A stretch of 64,000 nt of DNA from Hericium rajendrae. Its lineage: Eukaryota; Basidiomycota; Agaricomycetes; Russulales; Hericiaceae. The stretch's first letter is position 1. Each line of letters opens with the position of its first letter. The stretch covers positions 1,550,001 to 1,614,000 of the forward strand of contig CM065882.1 in NCBI GenBank assembly GCA_033439255.1, written 5' to 3'. Shown here piece after piece: positions 19,588-56,843 of the stretch. A model generated the notes under the pieces. The model was not told the origin of the DNA. It was given only the letters and a program-made list of their open reading frames with translations, and made no database searches. A program made the translations under genes and the position numbers.

Positions 19588-21470
19588 CTAGGGTTCGACA
19601 TGAGTGCACTCGCAGGTGACCTGGATCCGAACCCACAGGTATTCAACATGGCACGAGGGCTGACCTGGATCTGCGTGGGTTTCAGCCACCAGGTGATCCG
19701 GAGCTGCAGGTAGGGCCCATGACATCACAGGTCACTTGCAGATCAGTTGGCCTCACTACTTACTACATCCTCTCATCTTCTCTTTTCGTCTTTCTCTTCA
19801 ACTCAATGGCAGGGAGGGTTTTGTAGGGGCTAGAGGGGCCTTAGATGAGTCTACACGATCTTTATCTTACTTGCTGTACTAATCTTCGAAGTTTTGCTTG
19901 TTATCGAGCGAGTGAGACTCGTTTTCCACCGATCGACAGTCCCCAACTGGCAACAAGCCATCTTACTTTTCGCACACCATCCGCGCTCATTACCATTCTC
20001 ACTTTCGATGATAGCTCTCGTGCTCACATTCTCCTTGTCGACATGTCAATCCCGCACCTCAGCCCCATTCTTTACCTCCCGCACACACCCTCGAGAGCGC
20101 TCATGGCTCTGGTATTACACGTGGGAGGCCAGCAACAACAAACCGTCAAGCCCCATTGCTGTAGCAACGCGGCTTGACTACTTCTCATTGATTACTCGCA
20201 TGGAGTTACATGCAGAGACTTTCATGCTCTCGCTCATATCCTCATTGCCCGACTGCGTGCAGTTGCTCATGCACGATCACATGCCTGGAACAGCACGCAT
20301 TTCCACTCATGTTCCACCAGTGCACGTATGTGCCTCTGACTGGATACCCCATCCCCACGACTACGACTCTGTGTGCAGATGCCCGCGCCGGCCTCAATGC
20401 CATGCTCGGGCCTGCACCACTCAATCTCTGCATGCCCCAAGTTCAAACGTTGGCCGCGCATGCCCTTGCATGCCCGGGACAGTCTCACTCATACTCAAAA
20501 GAGCACGCACGGTTTTGGCATGGTGCACGTCTTTTCATATAGCTCTATTGTCACCTGCGCTGACCTGAAGCACAATCGTAACACACTCTCTCACCTCGAT
20601 GTCTCAATCCCGATGCACCACCCCCTTCCATTACACTTCATGGATATGGCACCGGCCTTGGACTCTATTTTCTCAACCTCCCGGCCCTTGCAACGTGCGC
20701 CAGTCTGCGCAGCTCCCTTGTCTTCGCCCTCGACTGGCTAGACATGGACTGTACGGTGTTGCTGTCATTCAGCATCAAGCTTCCAAGGCAAAGCACAATG
20801 ACATCGCTGGGTGCATGTATGAATCGGAATTGTTTTTTGTCAACTCGCTCGAGCAGTTATACATGCACACAAGGATCGATAAGGTGAGTTCGCTGCGCAA
20901 TCGCTTGGCAGATATTTCAGCGGGATGTATGCGGTATGCTACCCAAAGCACATGAACAAGCTCATGCTGCTCTCACTCGTGGGCATATCGTGCAATGCGA
21001 GCAACTTCATGCAGCCGTCGTGCGAGGCCATCAACGAGCGGTCCAAGGGTGCGGAGACAGCATCTCACCTGTTCGTATTTTGGCTCTGGTGGTAGTTTGA
21101 AGGGGTCGGTGTGATTCAATAGATATATAGACTAGAAAATATATGTACACACCGTGCACGCACCATCCGCAAAGACATTGAGGTCATGCATGTGCATGTT
21201 GATTTGAAGGGAGCAGCACCATTTAATATAGATCAAACTATGGATGTAGTGTACATAGTATAGTACTAATATACTATTGATAAATAATTACTGGACTGCG
21301 AGTTGCTTGTGGGTTACTCACAGGTTGATGGAGTTCAGTAAAAGCTTGATCTGGTTCTGGACGGGTGTCAGCCACCGGGTGATCCAGATCTGCAGGTCAG
21401 AAACCTGCATGTAAATGATAGGTATACCTGTATTGATAGACGGGTGACTCTGACTTGTGTTGAACCCTAG
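19588..21470. mobile_element. Element with CTAGGGTTYRACA inverted ends, left arm
   Basis: The left end CTAGGGTTCGACATGAGTG and the reverse complement of the right end (CTAGGGTTCAACACAAGTC) match, enclosing about 1.88 kb. No clear target duplication is seen. Inside are a CT-rich tract (about 19,765-19,800), a TACTAAT branch-point-like site before an AG (19,877-19,891), and a hairpin at about 20,139-20,177 (GTCAAGCC ... GGCTTGAC around TTGCTGTAGCAA). The C-rich open frames between 19.85 and 20.95 kb overlap in several frames with no recognisable domain. The layout (CT-rich tract, branch point, C-rich body, GC hairpin) resembles the modules of the CATC elements. Confidence 0.5.
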
Positions 21471-30162: not shown

Positions 30163-30305
30163 TATTAGATGAGATAACATGTCTTCAATATTACAAGAAA
30201 CTTCCTACAATCATTGATGCTCCTACTAGAGCAGCTCGTATCCAGCAGTATCAAATGTGGAAAGGAGTTGACTATGTCCCACCAAATGTGTCTGCTCCAC
30301 TCAAA

Positions 30306-36826: not shown

Positions 36827-37779
36827 ACTGTCCCTTTCATTCAACCCTATTATCTTGCTACTGGTGCCCACATTTTATCATGGAGAGAGGCGACAAACAC
36901 AGAAACAAGATTAGATACTATCCTCCTCCAATGGGAGGTAAGCCCGCACGCATAACCCTAGTTGTACGAGAGATGACAAGAAGGTTGCAATCGAGAAATC
37001 TCATCTCCCAAGGGTACAGATTGAGACAGGATGGAATGGAACCCCTATACCTGAAGACCAACATACTGGCCCATCTAGACAGGCAATTTTTGATGCCCTG
37101 CCTGAGCCAAGGGGGCTAGTAGACAATGAGGTCATGTATGATGAGGTCGGCAAAGATGGTGGAATCAGAGAGCCTCTGCATCAGGAAAATGTAGAGGTAC
37201 TATATAGTCCTATCAGAGTTATATAGAGTTCCTAGGGCCATAGCATTGCCCTTTACTCCATAGCCTATATAGCTAAGGAGAGATGCTATATAGTACTATA
37301 GAGCTCAAGAGAGATGCTATGAAGTGCTATCATAGCTATCATAGTTAACTATGCAGCTATCATAAGATATATAGCTATAGTAGAGGCTATGAATGTTATG
37401 TTACTGATATAAGCTATGTCTATAAGATAAACTTGACATATCTATATAAGCTATGCTCATAAGGTAGACTTGACAGATCTATAAAAGCAATAAAATCTAT
37501 TTATACTATCTAATCTACAATCAAACTACAATCAAATTTTCACAAAAGTTTCAAATCAACAAAAACATCAAAATTTTAAAGGACATTATGATTCATCAGA
37601 TAGACTAATACATGAAAAAGTATTATATTATACTAAAAAGTTAACAAGCCTGTATATATTTACAGGTGTTTAAGTCAAACTATATCAAATAAAATAAAAT
37701 AAAAATATAAAACTTATCTCAAAGATAATAAAAAGCGAAAATGAAACCTTAAAGTCAACAACTTATTGTAAGTAAACAA

Positions 37780-38006
37780 TAGAATGAAAGAGCACAAAAG
37801 ATAAGACATACCAAAGAGAAGAAAAAGCGAAAATATTCATGTCTACAAAGATAATACATAAGCATAAAGATTAGTTAACCATGTAACAACATAAGAACTT
37901 ACCGAACAAAGAAAGTTGAAGAGAGGAAGAGAAACGAACGACAGAAGACAAGAGATGGTAGTGGTAGAGAAGAGAGAGAGGACACGCATCGCGTATGCTT
38001 TATATA
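37780..38006 (-). ncRNA. TATA promoter and spliced leader of E1, apparently non-coding
   Basis: On the minus strand TATATAAA (38,006-37,999) is followed by a CT-rich tract (CCTCTCTCTCTTC), then an exon ending at GTAAGTTCTTATG and a TTTGTAG acceptor leading to an exon with TTTTCGCTTTTTC. E2 has the same order. No ATG frame of note follows. Confidence 0.5.
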
Positions 38007-38289
38007 TGTGCGTGCGTCGGAGCCCAAATTGTGGCTGGCCGGCGGTTGCCGGATGCCGCGGCAGAGGCTACTGATTTAGATTTCAGTAAGTTAGATTGAT
38101 TGCTCAAGGACATACACTGTAGTAGATACCTATGTACCTCATTTATCATGTAGAATCAAAGAATTCATACGTGCCCCGTTTTTCTCGAATTTTAAAAGAT
38201 TTTATTTGATTTGTTGAACTCGAAACCGGCAGCCGCGTGAGTCCTGCACTCGACACGTCGACTTCGTGCATTTCTTCGTCCAGTACTCC

Positions 38290-39650
38290 CTCAACTCAGC
38301 ATCCACCTCTCTCTCCCATTCCCCTCGTCTCTCTCCTCTCTCTCCACACCCAAAATACGACGTCGGTCGATGGTCAGGACGGCTAATAGGACTTTCGGGG
38401 GGTCTAGGTAAGTAAATGCATGTTTTTTTTTTGTCTTTTTGTGCTAATCAAACGAGTATTGCTCGTTGCCAACGAGCAATACTCGTGTGCCTTCTCGTGA
38501 TCCCCCGCTCATCTTTGACAACCTCGCCCACACCCACAAGCCTGCGTCATCCCCTCCCCTCGACAACGCCGTGGTCGATGCCGTCGAGTCTTGTTGCTAC
38601 GGCAACGAGACTCGACTAAACGTCACACAACGCGCTCTTCCTCCCGCCTCTACTGCAACACGCATGCACATGCCCAACCCCCCCACTGTTGCCCCTTGCT
38701 GCCAGCGCATGGAAGCCCGTGCCAGCGTGCATATGGCCCCGCGTTGCGCGCGCGGGGCCACATACGCCGGCGACTGCGCCCACACGGCCGCGGACGACGG
38801 TGCCAGCACACGCACCCGCACGGTTCGGCCACCATGTGGGCAGCCGCGCACGGTCCCGCCTTCACATGTGGGGCCACGTGTTCCAGCAACAGCGTGCACA
38901 TGGCCACGAATGACCCCGCCAGTGCACACCCACACGCACATGCTGCGTGGGCAGTCAGGGATGGCCCCGTCTGCGCATGCAGTCAGGGACGGCCCTGTCT
39001 GCATGCGCGGGGCTATGCATCTTGGCGATGGAGCATGTACGGCTGCAGACGACCATGATGGCACGTGCAGAGCATAGCCGACTGCATCAGCGCACCCACG
39101 CAATGCTGCACGAGGCAGTCGCATGCGCTCATGCCAGTGCGCGAGCTGCCGTGCACAGCTCCGTCGCGCACGCTGGGAACTGCATGCGCACGACTGCAGA
39201 CAAATGCGCCAGTGCATGCACGCACGCATCGCGCACATGCTGCACGGGTAGTCGCAGACGGCCCCGTCTGCGGTGCACTGGCCGCACGTGGGGTGACTGC
39301 ATGTGCATGGCCGTGGACAACCGCACAACACACGGTGCAAGTACCCGTATATGGCCCCATCTGTGTGCGCGAGGCCATGCACACCGGTGACCGCACGCAC
39401 AGGTGCGGACGACTGCGCCAGTGCAGGCTGCGTGGGCAGCCGCAGATGGCCCCCGCGGCACGCGCAATGCCGGCGATAGCGCCACGCGGCCGCAGATGAC
39501 TACGCCGGCATGGGCAGCATGGATGGTTCCGCCAGCCCGCGCATATGCGTGTGGGCCGCCATTCTCAAGTTGCAGCCATGCACACCAGCGGCTGGGTCAC
39601 ATGCTTGCGATTGGCCGCGTATGCCTCGCGCATGCGAGGTTGCATTTTGG
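38290..39650 (+). ncRNA. Module A: exon, 49-nt intron, hairpin, C-rich body
   Basis: A CT-rich tract (about 38,310-38,347) precedes an exon ending GGGGGGTCTAG; intron 38,408-38,456 runs GTAAGT to a GTGCTAATC branch point and ACGAG. A perfect 17-bp hairpin with a 1-nt loop follows at once (38,452-38,486: ACGAGTATTGCTCGTTG and complement). A second hairpin is at about 38,583-38,618 (GTCGAGTC ... GACTCGAC around TTGCTACGGCAA). Then about 1 kb rich in GCGCATGC, CACACG and GCCCC, with several frames open. Whether it is translated is unknown. Confidence 0.55.
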
Positions 39651-41306
39651 GACTTACTGAGTAGCTTACCTTTGCAGTGTATTAGGGTTGCTTGTAATAC
39701 ACTAGAATTCAATATCATAGACTTTGACTTCAAATTCTGTGTGCCTATCTGACTTACCATAGTACTCATAGTAACTATAGCATCTAATGTGACTGGATGA
39801 CTCTAGAGTCTAGCTGACTCATTGTAGAGGCCATAGTGACCATAGCAAGCCTATGAGGTTATATAGCAGCCATAGCATCCCTTTAGAAATATATAGCAGT
39901 ATATAGCTTTGACCGACTGCTATGAAAGCTATGATAGGGCTGATAGCCTTATATAGTTTAGAAGAATAGCTTCATAGGCCTGATAGAACTCTAATAGACC
40001 ATATAAGTTAGCACTAAGCTATGTAGAATTTCAATTTCCCTGATGTGGCTGATACTCAGAGAAAGGTGCACCACGATACCTGCTGTTTCCATGGGAATAC
40101 TACTGACAAAATGATCACAGGGTCAGCATGACTATCTTCATAAATGGCTTCTGAAACGAAGTGTATATCTCGACACCATGTTGGAGGGTGAATCACCTCC
40201 CCAAGATATGCTCTGCCATACTTGCAGTCAGAAGACAGGGAGCTGGAGATGTAATGATTGCCTTGGCTGCCCTTTCGAGTGTACTGCGTGCTTTGCAACT
40301 CACCATTCCCATCTCCCATTCCATCGGATTGAGTGGTGGAAAGGCAAATTTTTTGCTCCATCATGGCTGCACTCTGCAGATGTCAAGAATTCTCTAGGGC
40401 ATGGAGGGATGGCATGTCTCACTTTGCAGGCTCACCATAGGCAGTATGACAATGACCAAGATGTGGATCCGGCAGATGAAAGTGCAGACAAATCAGATCC
40501 AACTCTCCCGACCTTGGATGATGATGACACACTCCATTTCTAGACTGATACGTTATCCAGGAAAGCCCGTGATGCCGATGGGAATCCAATCATTTGTATT
40601 GTTGATTCCAATGGGATCCACCGCATGCCTGTCATCTGGTGTCAATGCAAAAATGCCGAACCTCCTGGCTTGCAGCTCTTTTGTCTGGGATTATTTCCTT
40701 CCTCATTTCATTCACCAGAGACCATATTCACATTCCGAGTCTTGGATGACTCTTGTCTCAACAACCTTGAGTGCAAAACGATGGCGTATCACTTCTTCCA
40801 CAAGCTTTGAAGACTCACAAGCAGTGCATTCCCTGCCTCCGTACCAGTACAATGCTTGACCTCCTTCAAATCAGTTCATCACTGCTCACCTACATCTGGA
40901 AAAAGTGTCCACACTACTTTAGCCTACAGTAGAAAATATGATCTACAGTAGCTATAATAGATTATATATTTTCTGTAGCATCTGTTGATAGGTGGGTCTT
41001 TATTACAACTACAGGTAGCCATCTGTAGCCATCTGTAGTGATCCGTAGCAGTCTGTAGATGGTATATCTACTATAGCTTATGTTAGCTACTGTAGCTTAT
41101 ACTAGCTACTGTAGTGCTATACTGCAGTATGTGAGATTCAGTATAATATAGTTTGTTGTAATCCATTATAGTCTCTCATATCACATTTCCAAAAATATAT
41201 CATGTAAAATATTCTATTTTCACTAGTTATATCTTCTACACAAATAGTACCAATGCATATTATATCCCCCTCCATGTCCTTCTGCACCCACAGCACCCAA
41301 TCTCTC

Positions 41307-42353
41307 GTGGGATCTGTTTTGCTGCAGCAAAACAGTTCCCACGTGCCATGTCCACGCAGGTCGACGGGGCATGCAGGAGTCGACGGCCATGCCATTGCCC
41401 ATGGGTTGAGCATGCATGCACGGGTCGTGCACAGGTCGTGCACAGGTCGATGGTGACACGCACAGTGGATTAGCGATGTGCATGGGTTGGTGGAAAGCTC
41501 GCAGTTCCACGTGCATGTGCAGGTCGACAGCGATGCATACGGATTGGTGGGGATGGGGGCAGGTCAGTGGCAACGCATGCGGATTGGTGGGGACGTGCAT
41601 GGATTGACGGGGACGCACACAGATTGACGGGGATGCGCACGGATTGACGGGGATGCGCACAAGTTGGCGGGGATGTGCGCGAGTTGGCGGGGATGCGTGA
41701 GAGTTGGCGAGGGCATGAGAAGGTCGGCAGGCATCTGCACGAGTCGGCGAGGGTGTGCGTCGGTCGACGGCAACACGTGCAGGTCAGTGCACTAGTATGT
41801 GTGAGTCGGCAATGATATGCACGGGTTAATGAGGGCATGCAGGCATTCGCAGTGACCTGCGCAGGTCGGCAGGGGCATGTGGGGATACGCAAGGGCGTGC
41901 ACGGGTCGGTGACGATCTGCGCAGTTCGGCAGGGGCATCCATGGTTCGGCAGAGAAGCAGGCCATATGGGGATGCGTGAGTCAGCAGCAACACATGCAGG
42001 TTGGCAGGGACGCGCGCAGGTGAGCAGCAACGTGCGTAGGTTGGCGGGGGTGCATGCGGGTCAGCGGGGGAGCGTGCGGGTCAGCGGGGGAGTGTACAGG
42101 GTCAGTGATGGCGTGCACGGGTCGGCGGTGACGTGCACGGGTTGACGGTGACATGCGCGGGTCGGGAGCCAGTGCGGGACACACGGGAGCATCCGCGAGG
42201 GTCTGGATGCAGGCAGGAGGGTACAAAAATGAGAGTATCGCTCGCGTTGTCTCGAGCGATACTCTCTTGATTAGTACAAGATAGCTATAAGATGACTGTA
42301 AATACTTACCTTGATTCCCACCCTCACAAGATCCAACGAAGACTGAATCGTAT
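41307..42353 (-). ncRNA. Module B: mini-exon, 43-nt intron, hairpin, 20-bp minisatellite, end hairpin
   Basis: Minus strand, in transcript order: a 44-nt exon (42,353-42,310, contains TTCGTTGGATC) between a TGTAG acceptor and GTAAGT; an intron with TACTAATC; a perfect 14-bp hairpin (42,266-42,231, GAGAGTATCGCTCG arms); about 0.9 kb with a 20-bp period (unit like GTGCGCATCCCCGTCAATCC); and an end hairpin at about 41,307-41,345 whose core is CTGTTTTGCTGCAGCAAAAC with outer arms CGTGGGA/TCCCACG. Confidence 0.6.
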
Positions 42354-42514
42354 CTACAATGAACATGCAAAAGTGAAGCAGCAAAAGGGAAGGGGGAGAG
42401 GGTGGAAGGAAGACGATGTGGCAAACAAAGTCGAGTCACGCACAAGTTGAACGCACGGAGCCGTGCGGCCCAAGCCGTTTTAGTGACCATATATGGACAA
42501 TGAAACAGCACGGT

Positions 42515-43095
42515 CATCAGGAAGGTTGACAACTTTCTGATTGACCTGACAATTTCTAACCCTACTGACAGCTTCTGATTGACCTGATCCACCTGAAAGC
42601 AATCTTGAGAAGCAAATATCTGATCAGACTTTTACATTCAAGAAAAGACATTTATTGTCAGATATATAAGTTTTTAATCTCTAACTAATAGATATATTAA
42701 AATCTTTGATATCTGAAATTTTTGAAAATCTGAGAGTGTCTGATTTCAAATCTGGAGGTCAAATATCAGTCAGATGGATCAGACAGTGTCAGACACCATC
42801 AGATGCTCTCAGACAGTTGCAGATAATTTTCAGATATTTGACCTCCAGATTTGAAAAAAATCTCAGATCAGACACTCTCAGATTTAAAAAATTTTAAATA
42901 TTAGAGATTTTGATATATCTATTAGTTAGAGATTACAAACTTATATATCTGACAATAAATGTCTTTACTTAAATGTAAAAGTTTGATCAGATATTTGCCT
43001 GTTAAGATTGCTTTCAGGTGGATCAGGTCAATCAGGAGCTGTCAGTAGGGTTAGAAATTGTCAGGTCAATCAGAAAGTTGTCAACCTTCCTGATG
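42515..43095. mobile_element. CATCAGG-type MITE, 581 bp, TSD GT
   Basis: Nearly identical to 29,582-30,162 (same length). GT on both sides. Inserted in the centre of E3. Confidence 0.93.
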
Positions 43096-43188
43096 GTGCG
43101 TGGCAGGCTGGGCCTGCGTGCGTTTCGACTTTGAACAAAAAAAACAGCACGGGGTGCGTGGGAAACGTTTGGCTATGGCCAAGCGGGG

Positions 43189-43226
43189 TGCGTGGGAAAC
43201 GTTTGGCTATGGCCAAACACGTCCCA
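43189..43226. repeat. Hairpin with CGTGGGA/TCCCACG outer arms
   Basis: CGTGGGA, then ACGTTTGGC, TAT, GGCCAAAC, then TCCCACG. Same outer arms as the end hairpin of module B. The 33 bp containing its 5' half are tandemly duplicated just upstream (about 43,147-43,213). Confidence 0.7.
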
Positions 43227-43229
43227 CGG

Positions 43230-44640
43230 CTGTCTTTTCAAACCTGCAAGGTATGTTATCCTCCTTTGATGGATAACTTATACATCTTTTGCAGGTATTT
43301 CGTTGGATTCACTACAGGAAACAGCCATAGAGGGCTACACGGTGAGTGCGACAACTCTATTGACCTTTCCTTGCACTAATATAGAGAGTATCGCCCGTAT
43401 TCCAACGGGTGATATTCTCATTTTTACCCTGCGCATGACGCCGACTTGCGTGCTCCCCTCCTAATCCCCGCGCATGGTCGCTGACTCGTGCACACCCCCG
43501 CTGACTCGCAACGCCCCCCGCTCCTCGCGCATGGCCTCGCCGACTCACGCGCACTGAGTCGCTTGCACCTGTACTAACTCCCCACGCCCAGTCCCTTCCA
43601 CCTGCACTGAGCTGCACATGCCCACTCCCGCACCATCCCCCGCGCACCCGCATCACCTTGTGCATGCCCGCACTGCCTCGCACACGTCCGCGCTGCCTCC
43701 TCTGTGTCCGCGCCTTATCCCCCGCATCCGCGCCTTATCCTCTGCATCTGCGCCATCTCCCCCACGTCCGTGCCATCTCCACTGCATCCGCGCCACTCCC
43801 ACCTGCCCGTGCCACCTTCCACACGCCCGCACCATCCCCCGCGCACCCGCGCCACCTCCTCATGCCTGCGCCACCTCGCACACATCTGCGCCACCTCGCG
43901 CACGCCCACGTCACCTCGCGCACACCCGTGTCACCTTGCGCACACCCGTGTCACCTCGTGCATGCCCACGCTGCCTTCCGCATGCCTGCACCATCCCCCA
44001 CACACCCGCCCTGCTCCTCATGCCCGTGCTGCCTCGCATACATCCGCGCTGCCTCGCGCATGCCCGCGTCACCTCACGCATGCCCGTGCCACCTTTCGCA
44101 TGCCCACACCATCCCCCGTGCACCTTCCCTGCCTCCTGCATGCCCGTGCCGCCTCGCACACGTCTGCACCACCTCGCACACGTCCGCGCCGCATCCCTCG
44201 CGTCAGTGCCGCCTCCTCCGCATCTGCGCTGCCTCTCCTGCATTCGCGCCATCTCTCCTGTGTTCGTGCCTTCTCCATCGCATCCGCGCTGCCTCGTGCA
44301 CGCCCGCACTGCCTTCTGCAGGCCCACGCCACCTCGCACATGTCCACGCTGCATCCCTCGTGTCTGCGCCACATCTTCCGTGTCTGCACTGCCTTCCCTG
44401 TGTCCGCACCACCTCCCCCGCATCCATGCCACCTCCCCTGCATCCGTGCCCCTCGCGCACACCCGCGCCGCCTCGCGGATGTCCGCGCCAAGTTGTGCAC
44501 GCTGCCTCACGCATGCCGCTGCCACCTCCCCTGCACCTGCATCACCTCCCCCATGCTACCTTGTGAAGCACTGCCGCTGACCCCCATGGATGTGAAGTGT
44601 GGGAACTGTTTTGCTGCAGCAAAACAGTTCGCATGCTCAG
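43230..44640 (+). ncRNA. Module C: mini-exon, intron, G:U-paired hairpin, 20-bp minisatellite, end hairpin
   Basis: Exon 43,295-43,341 (47 nt, contains TTCGTTGGATTC) after a TTTTGCAG acceptor; intron from 43,342 (GTGAGT) with CACTAATATAG; 15-bp hairpin 43,384-43,419 in which two pairs are G:U instead of G:C or A:U; about 1.1 kb with a 20-bp unit like GCCACCTCGCGCATGCCCGC; end hairpin at about 44,600-44,630 with the TTTTGCTGCAGCAAAA core. All three forward frames are open for over 300 codons, a result of the stop-free 20-bp unit. Confidence 0.6.
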
Positions 44641-44649
44641 ATCCTTTGA

Positions 44650-44983
44650 AGAAGATATATTAGAATCATGTAAATTAGATCATATTTGTAACTATTGTAG
44701 GTCCAATGAGAATCATTGTGAACATCTAAAGTGAAATCAAAGGATGATTTGGGCATTTAAGCATGCCTTTGAGAGTGCAGAATAGCTCAGAGGGAACATT
44801 TTATTTTTGTGATCTACCAGTGCTACAGGATGTACGGTAGCTGCAGTTCTGGCTTTGTAAGATTGCCAGGCCTCCGGATATCAAACCAGTGGCTTACAGT
44901 AGCCAAGGCTCGGTTACTATAGCCAAGGCTCGGCTACCGTAGCCATACCTCGGCTATCACCCAAAAAACCATTTTTCCAGATG
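44650..44983. other. Right subterminal region of E3
   Basis: Short repeats GGCTYGGYTACNRTAGCC and TACAGTAGC, matching the left subterminal CTGTAGC repeats in inverted sense. No gene. Confidence 0.5.
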
Positions 44984-45329
44984 CTATCTCCAGGACCGAT
45001 ACAGAGAGCTTCTCCGTGTGGAGCGGCAATGGCGAGATCTCAAAATGTGAAAGTGGTTTGGCATGGTGCATGGCGAAGCCAATGATGCCCCAGGTTGCCT
45101 CAGTATATTTTGTCCAACATGTGTCCAACCTGGATTCAATGTCCCAGATGACTAGAAGATGTGCGATCTGCACAGGTACGTATGCATATGTTTCTTTCAT
45201 GCCTGTGGTCGTAACGCTCCTGTAGATGGATATTTCAGCATGTCAAGACTTGGTCGTAGACAGCAGAGAACCACCCAAGTCACCAGTGATGATGAGAGTG
45301 AGAGAGCAGAGAGCGACTAGCAGCGCAGT

Positions 45330-45663
45330 GACCTGTATTGGAGGTACAGTACGGTACAGATGAAATGGACAATCTAGGGAAATAGGTGAGTGACAGGGAG
45401 CCTATAAGTACTGGGACGACAATGGGAAAAGAACAATGGACACCATAATGGGTTGAACAATAGAGTGAGAACAATGGTGGCCAAAAGGAGAACAATGGGA
45501 GGGAGAACAATAGGATGTCCCAAAGGGGAACAAGGGCATGGGTGAAGGATAGCCCCAGGTCATGTGAGGAAGTGAACATGTGATGGGGCTGCTGGAGCAC
45601 ATGACCGACACGATGCCTTGATGGCAGAGAAGAAGGCGGAGAGAAATGGAGTGATCTGTGACA
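45330..45663 (-). repeat. Probable gypsy 3' LTR
   Basis: Directly after the pol end and an AGAGAGGGGGTGATG polypurine-type tract, the minus strand starts TGTCACAGATC at 45,663. The far border cannot be fixed because the 5' LTR is not in the window. Confidence 0.5.
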
Positions 45664-46459
45664 TCACCCCCTCTCTAAGATGCACTTTCGCTTGGAGTGC
45701 ATGATGAGCATGGACGGGGTCGAGGTAGATGAGTCCATGAAGATTGGGAGCCTTGAGTGCATGCAGATGGCAGGTGTAGAAGTCAGTGATTGCACCATGA
45801 GCATTGGAAAGAGAGGTACGTGAAAGCCACTGATTTTCCAAATCAGGGTAGCCTGCCCATTTGATGAGATATTCAATGCCGCATTTGTTCCAGGTGAGAC
45901 GAGCATCGAGGACAGACTCAACTTCGTACTCTTCCTTGCCCTCCACAAGGTCAGGTGGTGGTGCAGGGAAGTTGGGACCATGAGCATCAGTTTCCTTGTA
46001 AGGGGACAACAGGGATGTGTGGAACACCGGGTGGATACACCATGTGGGCTGGAGCTTCAGTCAATAAGAGACTGGGCCCAGGACATCAGTGATTTTGAAA
46101 GGTCCCAGGCATCATCTGAGAAATTATATTTTTATATAGCCCAGTATTGATTTATATATCCTATCATAGTGCTGTGAGGTCTATCACCATCTATGTAGCT
46201 ATCCTTCTGAACTATGTAGGGCTACAAGGCCTCTCATAGCTTCCATAGCAGTAGTTAGACACTATATAGTGCTATATATTTCTAAGAGGCAGCTATAGTT
46301 GCTATATAAACTCATTGGCTTGCTATGGTCCCTATGGCCCCTATGACCCTACATTAAGTGAGGTATGAATACTATCATTACTATCTCAAAAGTCAAACAA
46401 GTACGAAAAAATATATATTCATTTTTAAATGGCTACTAGTACAATTAAGTACACTACTA

Positions 46460-47900
46460 ATATGAATGATGCATGCCCCGCGGACAAGGGCGCGCATGCG
46501 CACGAGGCGCAGCGGGCGTGCGGGGTGTGGTAGTTGTGCACTTGACACGGCAGTCGTGCGCCAGGCGCAATGGGTCCGGCCGTGCGGATGGAGTGGTGGT
46601 CGTGCGCGTCGGTGTTGGACTGCCGTGGGCTCGTACACGAGAGGCGCGGTGGAGGCGGCAGTGGGCGTGCTCGAGTTGCCGGGATGTGACAGGCCCGTGT
46701 GCAAGGCACGTCAGGCATGAGCGACGCATCGAGGTCCGATGACGCGGGAGGCGTGTCAGACGTGCACGGGGCGTGGGCTCCCGCTGGCTTGTGCACCAGG
46801 TACGGCATGGTGGTGTGGCTGTGTACGGGGCGTGGCGGCGTCCGCGAGGTACGGCGGGCGTCGCGGGGCATGAGGCTGCTGCGGGCTGGTGTGCGCGGCG
46901 CAGCGGGCATGGACGAGGCGCAGTGGGCGTGGGCGAGACGCGGTAGGTGTGGGCGAGACGTGGCAGATGTGCGCGAGATGCGGCGGACGTGCGTGGGATG
47001 CTGAGCTGCCGCGGGCTCGTGCGCGAGGTGCGGTGGGCATTGGGGAGGTGTGGTGGTTCGTTTTCGAGGTGTGGCAGGTGTTTTCAAGGTGCGGCGGGCG
47101 TTGTCGAGGTGTGGCAGGCGTTGGCGAGGTGTGGCAGGCATGGGCGAGGCGCAGCGAGCATGCACGGGGTCCTGGGCTGCCGCGCGCCCATACACGAGGT
47201 ACGGCGGGCATCCACGGGGGCTAGCTCGTGCGCGAGGTGCGGCGGGGCACGGTGGGGCAGGCGGGCGTGCACGAGGCACCGGGCCCATGCGCGGCCTCTG
47301 CACGAGGTGCGGCGGGGCGCAGCGGGGCAGACGGGCATGCGCGAGGCACCAGGCCCATGCACGACGCAGAGGCCGGGCACAAGGCACCGGGGCCTGCGTG
47401 CGTGTGCTGGCATTCGCTGGCATGCCCGTCCGCAGCTGTGGCCATCCACCAGCCATGCGTGCGCTGGCGTGCGCAGCACGGCGGGATCGCGCGCAGTGCG
47501 TGGGCCCGTGCGCGAGATGGGGACCAGCGCGCAGCGTGCCTAGCCCATGCGCGAGGCTGCGCTGCTGTGTGCGTCGTCCAGCAGTGTGTGCGGCGGCGGT
47601 GCCAGGAGTGGGTCGGTGAGGGCGAGATGGTGGCGAAAGGCGCGGGAGGCGAGGGGATGGGTGGCGAAAGGCGCGGGAGGCGAGGGGATGGGAGAGGCGC
47701 GCGAGGGCGAGAGGACGTCGAGAGTATCGCTCGGATGAGCGATACTCTTTGCGTTAGCACGAAGAAACGGTATAGAAGGGTTTTTTTTAACTCACCTGCG
47801 GCACCCTCGGCATCCCGCTACCCTCCTTCGGTGTTCGCTTTGATGGGAGACGATGGAGGGAGGGGAGGAGGAGAGGAGGAGAGGGAGGGGAGTGGTGGTG
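46460..47900 (-). ncRNA. Module D: exon, 47-nt intron, hairpin, 20-bp minisatellite
   Basis: Minus strand: CT-rich tract, exon ending GAGGGTGCCGCAG, intron 47,795-47,749 (GTGAGT ... GTGCTAACGCAAAG), a perfect 12-bp hairpin with GGAT/ATCC loop (47,748-47,721), then about 1.25 kb C-rich repeats with a unit like CACACCTCGACAACGCCCGC, related to the module C unit in the same transcript sense. Long open frames in all phases. No TTTTGCTGCAGCAAAA end hairpin was found. Confidence 0.55.
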
Positions 47901-47916
47901 GGAAGAGTCGAGTTGA

Positions 47917-47980
47917 ACATTCGAACTTCGACACACATTTCGGTGGTTCAGCCACCGAACACACACGAGTTCGAATGTTT
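47917..47980. repeat. Hairpin in E2 promoter region
   Basis: Outer arms AACATTCGAACT/AGTTCGAATGTT and inner arms TTCGGTGG/CCACCGAA with a TTCAG-type loop; short mismatched section between. The corresponding E1 region lacks a clear hairpin. Confidence 0.75.
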
Positions 47981-48207
47981 CGAGGCTAGTAAATCAAATA
48001 AAATAGGAACAAATCTAAGAAAAAGAGCATGTCTACAATTCACTAATACAATGAGGTTGAATCAGCTGAGTACCTAACTACTGTACTACAAGCTACTGGG
48101 CAGTGACACGAACTTAAAGGTGTCTGCTGCCTTAGCCTCTGATGCAGCGTCCGGCAGCGCCCGGGCCGAGTCGCGTCACCCACATTTGGCGCTCCGCTTG
48201 CCACGTC

Positions 48208-48560
48208 TATATAAGGTGTGCGCGACTCGCTTTCTCTCTCTCTTCCTTACCACTACCATCTCTCGTCTTTCGTCATCTCTCCTCTTCTACTTTAACTTTC
48301 TTATGTTTGGTAAGTTGTCATGTTGTTCTATTGTCTCTAACTTTATGTTATTTGTGGCTTAATGCATTTTCACTTTTTTATTTTCTTTGATATGTTGCTA
48401 CATTGTTTGATTGCTTCTAACCTTATTGTTCTTTGCAGACTTGCATTTTCGCTTTTATTTCCTTAGGTAAGCCTTATGTTTTTATTTTATCTTGTGATAC
48501 TGATTTGTTGATTTTTTTTGTAGATCATTTTCGCTTTTTTTTTAGTAAGTTTTATCTTTA
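48208..48560 (+). ncRNA. TATA promoter and spliced leader of E2, apparently non-coding
   Basis: TATATAA at 48,208-48,214, then TTTCTCTCTCTCTTCC, an exon ending TATGTTTG before GTAAGTTGTC, a TTTGCAG acceptor at about 48,440, an exon with TTTTCGCTTTTATTTCC, another GTAAGC and a TTTGTAG acceptor. No coding frame with a motif follows; 48,560-49,100 is AT-rich with CTATGATAG repeats. Confidence 0.5.
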
Positions 48561-50577
48561 TCTTATCTTTTATCTTATCTTATCTTTATCTTATAGTCTT
48601 ATCATAGATTTGCTAGTAATATTTGTAGATGTATTATAATCAAATATTAGTTGAAATATAATGCTTTTAAATTTTCGATGTTTTGAATATCTCAGATGTG
48701 CTATAATTATTTTGTTTTATTGATGAGTTTATAGCATCTTTTTGAGTAACATTGTTGGTAAAGATGATATAGAGTCAATAGTAGTCTAACTAGCTGCATA
48801 TAATATGATACTAAGGATATACCACATAGCTAATATAGCTATGATAATCATCATATGCTATGGTAGTTATGATAGTTATCATCTTATAACAGATAACTAT
48901 GATGACTATGATAGTTACTACCTTACCCTATGATAGCTATGATAGCTCTGTATAGATTGGCTTACTGCTATAGAGTGCTATGATAGCTCTATATAGATTG
49001 CCTTGCTGCTATAGAGTGCTATGTAGAAAAGGAGACTGCTATGGCCCTATCAGAGCTATATAGGCTACATAGTGCTATATACCACTGTTAAATTTCTCAG
49101 ATGATCGATCAGCAAGCTTAGCTTTGGGCCGTGTGGTTTTGATGTTCTTGCCATCGAGCCAGACCTTGTCACCAACCTGGAAGTGGATGGTGTCGTGCAT
49201 ATGGTCCTGGTTGTTGCACTTCATGAGGTCAGCAGCTGTTTGAAGGCTGGCCTGGACCTCAGTGCGAAGCTGTTCGAGATGACGGAAATGATCCTCGACA
49301 GCGGGTGTAGACGATGTGAGGTTGACAGTAGGGATGGCAGTGGGAATATAGCCGAGGAGCATTTCAAATGGAGCTCAGTTAGTAGCGCTGTGGATACGGT
49401 GGTTGTGCGAGAACTCAGCATAAGGGAGCCATTGGACCCAATCATCCTGACAATAGTTGCAGAAGGTGCGAAGGAACTGCTCGAGTTCTTGATTGACACG
49501 TTCTGACTCGCTGTCGATCTGTGGATGATAGGCAGTGCTGAGGGAGGACTTGATACCAAGTTTGTCAAAGACACCACGCATGACTTTGCCTGCATACTGT
49601 GGGCCACGATCAGAGATGAGGTGTTCCCAGAGGCCATAGTTCTGATAAATCCTGTCAAAAAGGATGTCGACTGTGCCATCACTGGTAATAGTCTCTTTAC
49701 AAGGAGGGAAGGAGATGTGCTTTGTAAAACGGTCGACAACCACATTGATGGAGTCATAGCCTTGGCATTCTGGGAGTTTGATGATGAAGTCCGAGGTAAT
49801 GTCTTGGAAAGGACGGGTAGGGATGGCATTGGGAATTGTTTCAACATGAGGGCAGTGATTTTGAACCTTGGTGGCCTGGCAGGTAGCACAGCCATCAACA
49901 TAATCACGAACGAAGACAGACATACCGGGTCACCAGTAGTTGCAACTAAGGAGCTCATAGGTCTTGTAGCATCCTGGGTGACTAGCCATGGGGGTGTCAT
50001 GATGCAGCTTGACAATGTTCCGATGAAGGTCCTTGTCAGCAGGGATCTAGACTTTGCCACGAAAGAGGATGAGGCCATCCTCGTAGTTCCATTCTTGGAG
50101 GTTCTTGACGAGGGAGCGAGGACCGTTCACATCAAGGGCTTGAACGACCTCAATGTCCTTGGTCTTGGCATTGCGAATGTGTTGGTGAAGATCAGCATTG
50201 CCAATGGACTTGACAGCAGCTGGACGTGTAGCACAGATCTGGAAGTACTTGGGGTCGAGGAGGACACAATCAGAGTTGTCGTCATCCACCCCCTCTCTAT
50301 GGTCAGGTCATCTCAACATGGCATCTGGCCAGTGATGAATACCGGGTTTGTGGATCAAGGTGAAATCAAAATGAGTGAGGAAGAGAGCCCAGCGAGCCTG
50401 ACGATGACTCAGCTTTTGGGCGGACTTGAAGTATTCCAGGTTCTTATGGTCAGTCCAGATCTCCACAGTATGGGGAGAACCTTTCAGGTAGTGGTGCCAG
50501 GCTTCGAGGGCACGGATGATGGCCAGGAGTTCCTTGTCATAGATGTCGTAGTTGCGTTCAGGGGCGGTGAAGGCCTT

Positions 50578-50770
50578 CATCAGGAACCCTTACAACTTTC
50601 TGATGCATCTGATCTTTGTCTGACTTGTCTGAAATCAGAACATTTCTGATATCAGACATTCAGAAAGTCAGAAATAATTCTGAAATCAGAAGTAACTTCT
50701 GAAATCAGAAAGGCAATCTGTCAACCAGATAACAATCTGTCAATCAGAAAATATTCTGCTTTTAGATTTG
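50578..50770. mobile_element. CATCAGG-type element end, truncated by the inverted-repeat border
   Basis: Starts CATCAGGAACCCTTACAAC inside gypsy RNase H, with TCTGAAATCAGAA-type repeats inward. The opposite end is missing: the right arm begins at 50,771. Confidence 0.75.
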
Positions 50771-50837
50771 TTACGATTCCTTAGAATCGTTTACTCTATA
50801 CCGCCTTTTCATAGTGAAAACGACACCAAAACGATGA

Positions 50838-50929
50838 CGATGCCCATTAGGCAGTTGGCTTATATAATCACACATCTTCGATCTGACGAGTTTGCAGGTT
50901 CAATTCCAGTTCAAGCCTGACTTTTTTTT
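50838..50929 (+). ncRNA. tRNA-like Pol III module, right arm
   Basis: Plus strand: box A-like TAGGCAGTTGG (50,848-50,858), box B GGTTCAATTCC (50,897-50,907), T8 at 50,922-50,929. Same as the left-arm copy. Confidence 0.55.
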
Positions 50930-50970
50930 ACACTTTATTTAATATCACACATGCAAAGCCAGTGCTCTTT

Positions 50971-52853
50971 CTAGGGTTCAACACAAGTCAGAGTCACCCG
51001 TCTATCAATACAGGTATACCTATCATTTACATGCAGGTTCCTGACCTGCAGATCTGGATCACCCGGTGGCTGACACCCGTCCAGAACCAGATCAAGCTTT
51101 TACTGAACTCCATCAACCTGTGAGTAACCCACAAGCAACTCGCAGTCCAGTAATTATTTATCAATAGTATATTAGTACTATACTATGTACACTACATCCA
51201 TAGTTTGATCTATATTAAATGGTGCTGCTCCCTTCAAATCAACATGCACATGCATGACCTCAATGTCTTTGCGGATGGTGCGTGCACGGCGTGTACATAT
51301 ATTTTCTAGTCTATATATCTATTGAATCACACCGACCCCTTCAAACTACCACCAGAGCCAAAATACGAACAGGTGAGATGCTGTCTCCGCACCCTTGGAC
51401 CGCTCGTTGATGGCCTCGCACGACGGCTGCATGAAGTTGCTCGCATTGCACGATATGCCCACGAGTGAGAGCAGCATGAGCTTGTTCATGTGCTTTGGGT
51501 AGCATACCGCATACATCCCGCTGAAATATCTGCCAAGCGATTGCGCAGCGAACTCACCTTATCGATCCTTGTGCGCATGTATAACTGCTCGAGCGAGTTG
51601 ACAAAAAACAATTCCGATTCATACATGCACCCAGCGATGTCATTGTGCTTTGCCTTGGAAGCTTGATGCTGAATGACAGCAACACCGTACAGTCCATGTC
51701 TAGCCAGTCGAGGGCAAAGACAAGGGAGCCGCGTGGACTGGTGCACGTTGCAAGGGCTGGGAGGTTGAGAAAATAGAGTCCAAGGCCGGTGCCATATCCA
51801 TGAAGTGTAATGGAAGGGGGTGGTGCATCGGGATTGAGACATCGAGGTGAGAGAGTGTGTTACGATTGTGCTTCAGGTCAGCGCAGGTGACAATAGAGCT
51901 ATATAAAAAGACGTGCACCATGCCAAAACCGTGCGTGCTCTTTTGAGTATGAGTGAGACTGTCCCGGGCATGCAAGGGCATGCGCGGCCAACGTTTGAAC
52001 TTGGGGCATGCAGAGATTGAGTGGTGCAGGCCCGAGCATGGCATTGAGGCCGGCGCGGGCATCTGCACACAGAGTCGTAGTCGTGGGGATGGGGTATCCA
52101 GTCAGAGGCACATACGTGCACTGGTGGAACATGAGTGGAAATGCGTGCTGTTCCAGGCATGTGATCGTGCATGAGCAACTGCACGCAGTCGGGCAATGAG
52201 GATATGAGCGAGAGCATGAAAGTCTCTGCATGTAACTCCATGCGAGTAATCAATGAGAAGTAGTCAAGCCGCATTGCTACAGCAATGGGGCTTGACGGTT
52301 TGTTGTTGCTGGCCTCCCACGTGTAATACCAGAGCCATGAGCGCTCTCGAGGGTGTGTGCGGGAGGTAAAGAATGGGGCTGAGGTGCGGGATTGACATGT
52401 CGACAAGGAGAATGTGAGCACGAGAGCTATCATCGAAAGTGAGAATGGTAATGAGCGCGGATGGTGTGCGAAAAGTAAGATGGCTTGTTGCCAGTTGGGG
52501 ACTGTCGATCGGCGGAAAACGAGTCTCACTCGCTCGATAACAAGCAAAACTTCGAAGATTAGTACAGCAAGTAAGATAAAGATCGTGTAGACTCATCTAA
52601 GGCCCCTCTAGCCCCTACAAAACCCTCCCTGCCATTGAGTTGAAGAGAAAGACGAAAAGAGAAGATGAGAGGATGTAGTAAGTAGTGAGGCCAACTGATC
52701 TGCAAGTGACCTGTGATGTCATGGGCCCTACCTGCAGCTCCGGATCACCTGGTGGCTGAAACCCACGCAGATCCAGGTCAGCCCTCGTGCCATGTTGAAT
52801 ACCTGTGGGTTCGGATCCAGGTCACCTGCGAGTGCACTCATGTCGAACCCTAG
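50971..52853. mobile_element. Element with CTAGGGTTYRACA inverted ends, right arm
   Basis: Counterpart of 19,588-21,470. This element carries several of the arm-to-arm substitutions seen (for example around 51,715-51,760). Confidence 0.5.
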
Positions 52854-53183
52854 GACTCAGAATCATCTCACATGATTGCTATATGAGATCAGTTGTTTCT
52901 GTGCATCTCACATTTTGACACCTTGGTGATGTACTGTGGAAAGGGATGAGGGGCAAGCATACAAGAGGGAACGAACCACAAAAAGTAGTTGAGATCTGAC
53001 AAGTACACTGGCATCAACAGAGCAATCCACAATACAACAATGCCTATACACGGAACAGCTAAGGGGCAAGGGAGGACAAGGGGACAGCAGGGGAAGATCA
53101 TGGTTTCCTTGCTTTCAGCACAAAAACACCTAGAAAGGAGGGGGGGGGAGTATGGATAGCGGAAAGCAGGAGGATGGTTTGTT

Positions 53184-54227
53184 TCAATGCCTCAGCTTCA
53201 GTACGGTTCCGGGTATGGCGTACCACACCAGCTGCTCAAAATAGGGCCCACAGGTGACGAATGGAATCCACCATTCCCAAAATGGGACCCTATTGTCGTA
53301 ATAGCTCTTGGTGGCAGCAACATACTCAAACCAGGGAGGGTAAAAGCCGGACGCCCCCCAATCGATCAGCCATACTATGCCATCTTCTCCAAGGAGGACA
53401 TTTGCTGGGTTTATATCGCCATGGGTCAACACAAGAGGTTGGGACTTGTCAAAGCGGAGGCGCTGCCGGATGTCGTCTGGTTGGACAGAAAACAAACGCA
53501 TCCCTACGTCAGCCTGTCTGTCGAACCAATTGGCAAGGTCGTCATAGGTGGTCCAAGGGCCCCGTCCAGCGAAGTTGGGCCCAAATATGGGCCCAGAACC
53601 AGGGAGAGGTGGGCCATTGGTGACGGGTCCCGGTGGTGAGTTGGGGGAGGGGTTGGTATGTCGCAACATGCGAACATACTGGCGGAGGACACACATGATG
53701 CGAATCTTCGACCACCAGTGGAGGTCGCCCCAGGCTTCGGACAACGTGTGGCCAGGGATGCGATCGAAGAGCAGGAATGCGGTGTCCTCCACTCGGTCCA
53801 TCCGGCGAAGCCTGGGTACCGGAATGGTGCCTAGTTTCCTGACAAACTCTGACGTGTTGGCCTCCCCTGACTCGCCACCGTTTCCGCCGTCTGGAGACGT
53901 GGCAGTGGTGAGCTTCAAAATGCGGTCAGGGCCGACGAAGCGGGCTGTGTGGTCTTCGTCGACCAAGGAGGCCTTGTGGTACTCCTGAAGCAGGTCGCTG
54001 AACTCCAAGCTGTCAAGCGGGCTGGGCTGCATCAGCTGGTGAGCAGGTGCCGTCAGACAAGGAGTGCTAAACCTCACTCGCAACACGGGGCCACTGGAAA
54101 TGGAAGAGATGCGAAAGAGTCGGAGGAGGTCGGCGACACCATCTGCGAGGAGGCCGAGAAGGCTAAAGGTGATCCAAGAGGCATAATGTCTCGGTGTCCA
54201 CACATGTGTCCAGAGTGGTTGAAGCAT
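53184..54227 (-). CDS. Aminoglycoside/choline-kinase-type phosphotransferase (APH family), intact
   Basis: 347 codons, single exon, ATG at 54,227. An N-terminal hydrophobic stretch (WITFSLLGLLADGVADLLRL, residues about 18-37) may be a membrane anchor. Then GPDRILKL, GTIPVPRLRRM, FLLFDRIPGHTL, and the catalytic block LTHGDINPANVLL (about 265-277; the HGD Asp is the base and the Asn binds metal) followed by VWLIDWGASGFYPPWFEY (the metal-binding Asp of the DFG-equivalent). Family members transfer phosphate from ATP to small hydroxylated or amino compounds; expanded fungal APH genes are mostly uncharacterised, so no substrate is claimed. The left-arm copy is frameshifted twice. Confidence 0.88.
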   Translation of the reverse strand: MLQPLWTHVWTPRHYASWITFSLLGLLADGVADLLRLFRISSISSGPVLRVRFSTPCLTAPAHQLMQPSPLDSLEFSDLLQEYHKASLVDEDHTARFVGPDRILKLTTATSPDGGNGGESGEANTSEFVRKLGTIPVPRLRRMDRVEDTAFLLFDRIPGHTLSEAWGDLHWWSKIRIMCVLRQYVRMLRHTNPSPNSPPGPVTNGPPLPGSGPIFGPNFAGRGPWTTYDDLANWFDRQADVGMRLFSVQPDDIRQRLRFDKSQPLVLTHGDINPANVLLGEDGIVWLIDWGASGFYPPWFEYVAATKSYYDNRVPFWEWWIPFVTCGPYFEQLVWYAIPGTVLKLRH

Positions 54228-54934
54228 GGAGGAGGATCGGATGATAGCCTTGTGGACTGATTAATGGAGATATACACACACACAGTTCGGTGCCATGCAT
54301 CCAGAGAATCAATCAACCATGCGTCCGGAGATCGGCCCGGTGAAGACAGCCCTTCAAAGGGCGCAAGGCAGACCATGTGATCACGGAATGTCTGAAACAT
54401 CCGGAGCTAGAATCATGAGAAGGCTGAGTGGATGGAGAGCGGCTTAGAAGCCTGAGCCAGATTGAGCTGGGCCAGCTTAGAATAGGGCAGAAAGTCGCAT
54501 GCGTCCAGTTGTTGATAGGGCCCGCTGCTCGACGCAGCCTGGTACTTATCACTCCCCCATGTCCATACCCACCGACAGCGTATCTGCACCAGGTGTCCTC
54601 CCACTCAAACCATGGGCAAGCCCTCATTGGGCCCAGCCTTGGAAACAACCTACCCAGATCGAGACCAAGGTTTGAGCACACACGCTATGTTGATCTAATG
54701 ATACTGGTACTCACCCAGAGCTTAGATCGCCGTAGGCAGCATTGATAATAAAGCTGTGAATTACGGCCACATGCCCTTTAGAACACTGTTCTGGGGCGGG
54801 TTCTCGAGCACGAAGGAGGTCAACCATCCTGTACACTGGTGCATTTGTGTTAGTGTATCCTGGCCTTAGATTAAGCTGACAAGAAAACAGGTCGGTAACA
54901 GGTGACTTTGAACCAAAATTAAAGCCATTCCCGG
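54228..54934. other. No gene recognised
   Basis: Counterpart of 17,491-18,213. It should hold the promoter of the APH gene; no other support. Confidence 0.4.
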
Positions 54935-56610: not shown

Positions 56611-56843
56611 CTGCACTTGTGTCAAACCCTACAGTGGCAGTGGCATGATGATGACTGGCTTGTAGGTAAAGCACATCTTTGGTATGGAACATGTTTTTAT
56701 GCTGCAAAATTTAAACGGTTAATGATTACATAAGCAAAACTCGGTTTTCAGATGCACAGATCCTTATCAGTCCTTATCATCTCTCTGCTCTTCCTCTCTT
56801 GCTCTTCACTCTCTCACCTTCTACACCTCTAAACAATCTCACT

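Follow-up and report, generated by a model that had tools for sequence, protein, structure and literature searches.

The locus studied here raises the question of what a module that combines the signals of a short intron, a hairpin and a long C-rich region might be, and what carries it. It lies in a stretch of 64,000 nucleotides from Hericium rajendrae (contig CM065882.1, positions 1,550,001 to 1,614,000), referred to below as the window. The initial annotation had described the module at four places (38.4, 42.3, 43.4 and 47.7 kb) as an exon end, a mini-intron, an AG and then a hairpin, which would be the 5' end of a C-rich final exon.

The module and its intron signals

The four places are real and show the same order (4/4): in transcript sense a donor is followed after 34-38 nt by CTAAY, and this after 5 nt by the hairpin stem and then by C-rich DNA. 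The exon ends also read as proposed, at 38407(+), 42310(-), 43341(+) and 47796(-). Module 1 (38408..38486, plus strand) has the donor GTAAGT at 38408, the branch-point-like CTAAT at 38444-38448 and a hairpin core at 38454-38484, with outer pairs to 38452/38486. In Module 2 (42231..42309, minus strand) the donor is at 42309, CTAAT at 42274-42270 and the hairpin core at 42264-42233. Module 3 (43342..43419, plus strand) has the donor GTGAGT at 43342, CTAAT at 43376-43380 and a core at 43386-43417 with a GCCC/GGGT variant. Module 4 (47720..47795, minus strand) has its donor at 47795, CTAAC at 47757-47753 and its core at 47747-47722. Two decayed modules, absent from the initial annotation, were weak matches to the covariance model (26.8 bits each): one at 19838..19925 on the plus strand, whose donor reads ATGAGT and whose hairpin is broken, and a second copy at 52516..52603 on the minus strand, in an inverted duplicate. 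Rfam gave no match in the window at gathering score.

In the whole genome, an exact-pattern search found 337 hairpins whose stem is of the main type and another 44 in which an A-U pair has been exchanged for G-C by compensating changes; the reversed-pattern controls for both types had no matches. The combined pattern GTRAGT-N18..46-CTRAY-N5-GAGTATYRCTC occurred 151+155 times (backward control 0+0). The arrangement of the module is not due to chance. Most of the genomic copies examined lie within transposons.

All 31 main-type hairpins listed for contig C1 are preceded by a donor-like site 33-40 nt before a branch-like site. Strict GTRAGT was scored in 27 of them and strict CTRAY in 24; the donor count becomes 28/31 when L051 is included, where the script passed over a GTGAGT for a nearer, weaker match. 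Of 157 CTAAY sites of the window that lie outside modules, 4 have GTRAGT at a distance of 33-42 nt upstream. Thus the short conserved sequence beside the hairpins looks like splicing signals, as had been suggested, and the refuting condition set in the initial annotation, hairpins found equally often without these signals, did not apply to the main-type hairpins listed for C1. One local duplicate hairpin with a mutated stem, L004, is without a donor of its own. The donor GTRAGT and the putative branch point CTRAY stand at short distance, as in a U2-type spliceosomal intron.

Compensating changes in the hairpin

The stems had been said to differ in sequence yet to pair. Pairing despite variation was borne out, but the stems are not unrelated: those of the window modules share a conserved core, GAGTATCGCTC, with a few compensated differences. 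Among 44 copies, 6 of the 13 pairs were changed on both sides, a value reached in 2 of 500 shuffles; the 24 double-change cells and the covariation score were equalled in 0 of 500. The outer pair is kept in 93/96 copies (permutation maximum 72). The base pairs of the stem covary beyond shuffles, and the hairpin is kept by compensating changes. The arms of the core are separated by a spacer of 4 to 14 nt. Folding of 39 modules gave a stem stability of about -24 kcal/mol. A 'zipper', in which the G-rich end of exon 1 pairs with the C-rich sequence past the hairpin, was rejected; such pairing was no stronger than composition predicts (mean z -0.31, 39 modules).

The carrier transposons

The modules of the window lie in three complete elements with the general end form CATCWG..CWGATG. 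Element I (37179..40045, plus strand) is PlavakaB-like, has the termini CATCAGG..CCTGATG and is flanked by the 2-bp target duplication TG. Element II (40893..44983) has the termini CATCTGG..CCAGATG and a 3-bp duplication, CTA. Element III (46113..49103, minus strand) has the termini CATCTGAG..CAGATG and the 2-bp duplication AT. The modules at 42.3 and 43.4 kb, taken as separate in the initial annotation, are the divergent halves of Element II; between them a 581-bp insertion is nested (42515..43095), which is 98.6% identical to 29582-30162. PlavakaA ends (TGT..ACA) were rejected for Element II, where CATCTGG..CCAGATG and the CTA duplications fit exactly, and a Helitron end (RTTAG plus hairpin, on the other strand) was dropped in view of the exact CATC..GATG termini and the 2-3 bp duplications. 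The region 40115-40540, which we took to be a KDZ-transposase, has no Pfam support for this reading.

Target duplications were found in 12/14 elements with both ends seen, copies with one recognisable end being left out; 11 were of 2 bp and one of 3 bp. L060 and L062 have the same flanks, and counting them once gives 11/13. The two elements without a matching duplication are L010 (ct/ca) and L061 (tg/aa). The genome contains 198 exact left ends, and of the 17 on C1 a single one (L128) leads to no hairpin.

PlavakaB of the CMCT/CACTA clade, from Agaricomycotina, is described in PMC12730594 with the termini CATCA..TGATG and target duplications of 2-3 bp; the host studied here has its nearest named proteins in mushroom-forming fungi. 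The carriers share the CATC..GATG termini and the 2-3 bp duplications; their fifth terminal base is A or T, and the fit is to CATCW and not strictly to the published CATCA. They differ in having a spliced-leader-like hairpin module and a C-rich array, of which the passages of PMC12730594 examined make no mention. The view that no fungal element of this plan had been described is thus half right: the carriers fit published termini and duplications, and the hairpin module was not met among the literature matches listed.

None of the scored matches to the Plavaka transposase (PF18759) lies in the window and none was linked to carrier ends; at least 132 PF18759 matches lie elsewhere in the genome. 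Hence the carriers look non-autonomous. In 9 kb around one of these matches (L123) there was no convincing CATC..GATG pair. An autonomous element that shares the carrier ends was not found: longer elements, with ends paired by eye from the listing, had no Plavaka match among those scored, and the one that was fetched (L061) contains other transposon-like sequence, as read by eye. No transposase or TET/JBP gene was recognised in the copies examined. Taken together, the carriers look like non-autonomous, PlavakaB-like elements and are possible members of PlavakaB.

Possible positions of the acceptor

The AG common to the module copies does not precede the hairpin, as had been proposed, but lies inside it, at bases 2 and 3 of the stem core (GAG followed by TATCGCTC). 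Its distance from the branch A is 9 nt in 96/96 modules, which were chosen for that spacing, and 7 nt in a second stem type (L061, L129). About 9 nt from branch A to AG is usual in short fungal introns, and GAG is a poor acceptor. Among the proximal AGs of the 96 copies, any YAG occurs in 33, GAG only in 35 and AAG without YAG in 28.

In most divergent copies a tract of about 100 nt that is rich in pyrimidines and poor in AG follows the hairpin. Among 25 divergent representatives out of 43 modules, 13 are free of AG over the first 100 nt, against 3.7 expected and at most 10 in 1000 shuffles; for comparison, GA is lacking in 3 and CT in 0 of the same 25. The ratio of observed to expected AG is 0.32-0.35 there, that of its complement CT 0.89-0.97. 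GG too is avoided, so that the shortage of AG may partly be due to composition. The pyrimidine fraction is 0.68-0.77 up to 100 nt past the hairpin and 0.57-0.62 beyond. In 39 modules the first AG beyond the hairpin follows at a median of 110 nt (range 9-415 nt), and in 8 of these within 60 nt; fungal acceptors usually lie closer than this median. The base before this AG is mostly C or T, by eye with no excess over composition. In the window, the sequence from the end of the hairpin core to the first AG spans 38485..38540(+) in Module 1, with CACAAG as a candidate distal acceptor, and 42203..42232(-) in Module 2, where the context is CATCCAG. The tracts of Modules 3 and 4 are AG-free over 43418..43558(+) and 47565..47721(-) and end at CACTGAG and CACACAG, respectively.

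Since the stem AG is a GAG in a stem of about -24 kcal/mol, a YAG is present there in 33/96 copies and an AG-poor tract usually lies behind the hairpin, an intron that runs on past the hairpin to an acceptor behind it appears at least as likely as a hairpin that starts the last exon, and the latter proposal of the initial annotation has become doubtful. It would have a mini-intron of 43-49 nt end at an AG at or inside the hairpin foot, and the hairpin or its remainder, which could gate the acceptor, would open the last exon. The good donor and branch signals and the usual distance from branch A to AG speak for this possibility. Yet we consider it unlikely, given the poor acceptor, the pairing of the stem AG with a probability of about 1 (39 modules) and the AG-poor pyrimidine tract, which it leaves unexplained.

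A possible role of the hairpin in DNA

Alternatively, the hairpin could be a feature of the DNA (a palindrome, a cruciform or a binding site of a protein of the transposon or the host) that came to lie beside the intron signal by ancestral accident; templated correction or other processes acting on DNA would then maintain its pairing. The stems are indeed near-perfect palindromes, further palindromes are present in the same elements, and the array period of 20 bp in most copies corresponds to two turns. The strand test for RNA, based on CpG decay in the stem, likewise showed no preference (TG 19, CA 16). On the other hand, position and orientation relative to the intron signals are constant (31/31), the variation of the spacer is odd for a dimer site, and on the sense strand AG is avoided whereas CT is not. 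This makes a pure DNA feature quite improbable.

The C-rich arrays

The C-rich arrays are non-coding, mostly periodic at 20 bp and decaying at CpG. The array of Element I extends over approximately 38541..39640(+), and lag 20 is outside its top five. A 20-bp period is present in those of Module 2 (41336..42202, minus strand), Module 3 (43559..44606, plus strand) and Module 4 (approximately 46470..47564, minus strand); the first two of these are closed by the palindrome CTGTTTTGCTGCAGCAAAACAG at 41314-41335 and 44607-44628, respectively. Array decay consists mainly of CpG transitions, as if the DNA were methylated. That the C-rich region is the coding last exon of a repeat protein, with the module as its 5' leader, would agree with the long open frames (up to 343 aa in the window arrays and 333 codons in L054) but is hardly credible and was rejected: the open frame differs among close copies, indels of 16, 14, 19, 4, 2 and 1 nt occur beside one of 51 (7 copies), a period of 20 is no multiple of 3, and there was no Pfam match for 6 ORFs and no homologue of the 343-aa ORF among 8000 candidates scored.

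A proposed structured intron in a transposon RNA

With moderate confidence we propose, from the sequence evidence, that a spliced transcription unit without coding function begins with the module in non-autonomous PlavakaB-like (CACTA-clade) transposons, and that the hairpin acts as a 'downstream stem' within the intron. The carriers would be moved in trans by the Plavaka transposase, and the element RNA would be transcribed and spliced, with the hairpin between branch point and acceptor. There the stem would lock away AGs that stand 5-9 nt away from the branch point, shorten the path past itself and steer splicing to an AG at a greater distance. Through its intron the transposon would obtain an expressed leader RNA, and the CpG-rich array could be a site of host methylation. 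Some observations count against this model. A stem of about -24 kcal/mol so near to the branch point could be an obstacle to splicing instead of an aid; the distance to the first AG is variable (9-415 nt), CpG decay in the stem has no strand preference, the left end of L128 leads to no hairpin, L004 has no donor of its own, and an autonomous element with these ends was not found.

In En/Spm (CACTA), a GC-rich untranslated first exon is the downstream control region. The arrays resemble it in being a CpG-rich leader region of short repeats, probably methylated, in elements of the CACTA clade; they differ in their length of about 1 kb and in belonging to elements without a recognised gene or regulatory protein. 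For a soybean CACTA element, behaviour follows its methylation, according to PMC4219821. Downstream stems in yeast lie between branch point and acceptor; they are proposed to shorten the path to the acceptor and have been seen to cover cryptic acceptors (PMC12350175). The stem described here is similarly stable, just past the putative branch point and covers near AGs; the avoidance of AG and the pyrimidine content behind it suggest that the acceptor may lie beyond it. In contrast to the yeast stems, it starts 5 nt from the branch site, has a conserved core and is followed by an AG-poor tract, and it belongs to a dispersed transposon family of hundreds of copies with predicted splicing.

A more far-reaching and tentative idea is that a structured splice acceptor has arisen in this family, in which the covarying hairpin, 5 nt from the branch point and in about 380 copies, gates acceptor choice in the transposon's own non-coding RNA, possibly as a switch that tunes a stalled, RNAi-triggering or methylation-guiding transcript. 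The folded form would lead to the distal AG or to unspliced RNA, the melted or protein-bound form to the proximal AG. A frame for the switch, and for this only, is SCANR of the basidiomycete Cryptococcus, a spliceosome-coupled nuclear RNAi acting on poorly spliced transposon RNAs, in which the intron quality of transposons is tied to silencing (PMC5851062).

If the proposed model is true, several hundred natural intron-hairpin variants in one genome would form a mutational series for the study of fungal acceptor choice. It would also mean that a DNA transposon without any recognisable gene product is under selection for RNA structure and splicing. Moreover, it would link CpG methylation with splicing and the control of transposons in mushrooms, a group in which some Plavaka elements are known to carry TET/JBP genes.

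Genome-wide occurrence of the module and its hairpin

The initial order of the module was recovered at all four places in the window (about 38.4, 42.3, 43.4 and 47.7 kb): in transcript sense, a donor is followed after 34-38 nt by CTAAY, five bases, the hairpin and C-rich DNA. The whole genome (46.8 Mb, 19 contigs; the window is C5:1550001-1614000) contains 313+313 matches to GAGTATCGCTC (backward control 5+7), 337 hairpins of the main type GAGTATNNCTC-N2..14-GAGNNATACTC (control 0) and 151+155 matches to GTRAGT-N18..46-CTRAY-N5-GAGTATYRCTC (control 0+0). There are also 44 copies (control 0) of a second stem type, GAGTGTCGCTC..GAGCGACACTC, in which one pair differs by a compensated change. These counts rest on exact patterns, which miss decayed copies, and positions were taken from the first 100 places per pattern, so that coordinates cover part of the genome. 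Judged by these matches, the module is a genome-wide family.

The claim that the stems differ in sequence yet pair was borne out in 44 divergent copies (13 pairs, 500 shuffles). Six of the 13 pairs changed on both sides with pairing kept (2/500 shuffles as high) and 97.4% of cells were paired (0/500); there were 24 double-change cells (0/500), the covariation score was 0.182 vs 0.100 (0/500) and further pair types numbered 15 vs 12.6 (16/500), all against a shuffle control that is inflated by kinship among the 44 rows. Shifting the partner by 1-3 columns left 24-52% of cells paired and no more than three pairs with changes on both sides. The outermost-but-one pair, which adjoins the core, was kept in 93 of 96 modules (permutation maximum 72), and predicted stability averaged -23.9 kcal/mol over the 96 copies (-30.5 to -11.9). 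CpG decay in the stem showed no bias to the wobble-preserving strand (TG 19, CA 16) and therefore lends no support to RNA-level selection in the sampled copies.

Intron signals and the position of the acceptor

By the initial criterion, hairpins occurring as often without intron signals as with them would refute the proposed module. On contig C1, where all 31 main-pattern hairpins were read and none was picked for such signals, every one is accompanied by a site resembling a donor and one resembling a branch point. The donor was scored as strict GTRAGT in 27 of them, the remainder being GCAAGT, GTGTGT, GTAAGC and locus L051, whose GTGAGT was skipped by the scoring script; strict branch sites were CTAAY in 23/31 and CTRAY in 24/31. 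Outside the modules, 4 of the 157 CTAAY in the window have GTRAGT at the same distance. A contrary case is L003/L004 (C1:85174-85334), where branch site, hairpin and following sequence are duplicated in tandem inside one element; this 150-bp duplication creates a second hairpin 150 bp away, in the same orientation, with a branch site and without its own donor; this second hairpin lies outside the 31 because of its mutated stem. The donor rate of 95/96 among distinct modules is biased, as is their constant AG distance, because membership of this set required a branch-like site at a set distance and, for part of it, a strict donor as well.

The hairpin had been read as the 5' end of a final exon, directly after an AG. 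Of this reading the intron signals stand, whereas the constant AG of the 96 modules lies inside the stem, 9 nt from the branch A (a preselected spacing), and is preceded by G. This spacing is two bases shorter in L061 and L129, which have the second stem type. Additional AGs occur 5 or 7 nt from the branch A in 80/96 modules; near it, any YAG is found in 33/96 and GAG alone in 35/96. When 39 modules were folded with long context, the pairing probability of the stem AG averaged 0.999.

Across 39 modules, the median distance from the hairpin to the next AG is 110 nt (range 9-415; at most 60 nt in 8), compared with 21 in shuffles of the next 600 nt. A comparison controlled for local composition drew on 43 modules, represented by 25 divergent ones: the first 100 nt were AG-free in 13, where 3.7 were expected and none of 1000 shuffles exceeded 10, and they lacked GA in 3/25 and CT in 0/25. 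Relative to expectation, AG frequency was 0.32-0.35 over the first 100 nt, 0.49-0.59 at 100-400 and 0.73-0.82 further out. GG was depleted too, at 0.39 and 0.23 in the two bins nearest the hairpin and 0.38-0.70 after them, which counts against pure AG exclusion. The pyrimidine fraction was 0.68-0.77 to 100 nt and 0.57-0.62 past that. Such an AG-poor, pyrimidine-rich stretch would have the look of the tract between branch point and acceptor, and for this reason an intron extending past the hairpin is favoured over an exon starting at it.

Stems between branch point and acceptor, termed 'downstream stems', are described for 21 of 88 yeast introns (PMC12350175); path shortening is proposed and covering of cryptic acceptors was seen. 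On the favoured reading, the module hairpin would occupy the same place. The signals and the stem are directly supported, and from them we infer the following course: transposon RNA would begin 5' of the G-rich sequence that ends exon 1, splicing would use the branch point, the hairpin would fold immediately and mask the near GAGs, and splicing would join to a later AG, with the C-rich array retained in the spliced RNA.

The C-rich array

Lag 20 gave the top mean autocorrelation over 41 arrays, a set that includes close relatives (0.097; next lag 40, 0.054), and was within the top five lags in 36, the others being L009, L014, L031, L032 and element I. The 20-bp signal is strong in arrays of the element II type and weak in many others. 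In one subfamily of six copies, CpG sites showed 9.0% transitions (180/1993) vs 0.6% at other C/G sites (13/2206), a trend also seen in a set of seven copies and one that methylated CpGs would be expected to give; in the subfamily of six, about 73% of the counted CpG letters fall in the array. A conserved reading frame was excluded by indels and shifting frames, and neither a Pfam search with 6 ORFs nor a homology search with the 343-aa ORF, among the 8000 candidates scored, gave a match.

The carrier transposons

Copy alignment revealed sharp borders, CATCWGANAAAT.. on the left and ..ATTTYTCWGATG on the right; the inverted repeats are imperfect, and the dinucleotides of the 2-bp duplications differ among copies. 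In the window, elements I (37179-40045), II (40893-44983) and III (46113-49103) are flanked by TG, CTA (3 bp) and AT, respectively. Both ends could be recognised in 14 elements. Target duplications flank 12 of these, two of which (L060, L062) have identical flanks, and are absent in L010 and L061. Termini and duplications agree with those published for PlavakaB (CATCA..TGATG, 2 or 3 bp; PMC12730594). The genome holds 198 exact left ends, 391 right ends (by a different pattern) and at least 132 matches to the Plavaka transposase profile PF18759 among the best candidates scored, none of these in the window. We call the carriers PlavakaB-like, non-autonomous elements, which were probably mobilised by Plavaka.

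The 17 left ends on C1 were paired to hairpins by eye, comparing listed places: ten lead to a complete main-type hairpin 1.2-1.7 kb further in, two to a single exact stem arm (C1:555828, C1:4312683), two to the second stem type (L061, L129) and two to a decayed stem (L060, L062), and L128 has no hairpin within the 801 bases read. Element II, L015, L020 and L033 each contain a divergent pair of modules, separated by about 0.5 kb; those of element II were pushed further apart by a 581-bp insertion. By eye, the upstream part of L056 and its subfamily holds a unit that runs leftward, has TATATAA and appears to be spliced; in copies of the element I/III type it lies across the promoter region, at the position taken by the second hairpin module in element II-type copies.

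Other sequences in the window

A 13.2-kb segment with a GAGGAG-repeat region forms two inverted copies (8415-21671 and 50770-64000; 99.5% identical) and includes decayed hairpin modules. The second copy continues past the window edge and has an ORF matching APH kinases, whose named homologues (32-56% identity, some covering part of the query) belong to mushroom-forming genera of the Agaricomycetes, among them Dentipellis, Lentinula and Trametes. Adjoining the segment's end is a 1444-bp direct repeat (21669-23112 and 23293-24736; 96.6% identical), which may represent long terminal repeats or else a tandem insertion. A PIF1-like helicase ORF (27981-28631; Pfam E 8.3e-26) is possibly a Helitron remnant. 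A TCAGGTCAATCAG-type repeat of about 0.5-0.6 kb (27298-30164, 42515-43095) occurs in several copies and both orientations, one of which splits element II. The frame at 40115-40540, rich in cysteine and histidine, presumably resembles KDZ transposases, a reading to which Pfam gave no support.

Novelty of the module

The initial statement that no such fungal element had been described has to be divided. The carriers are an already known kind of transposon, similar to PlavakaB as published (PMC12730594); for the module, no description was found among the papers listed from open-licence PubMed Central, and it may represent a novel splicing device.
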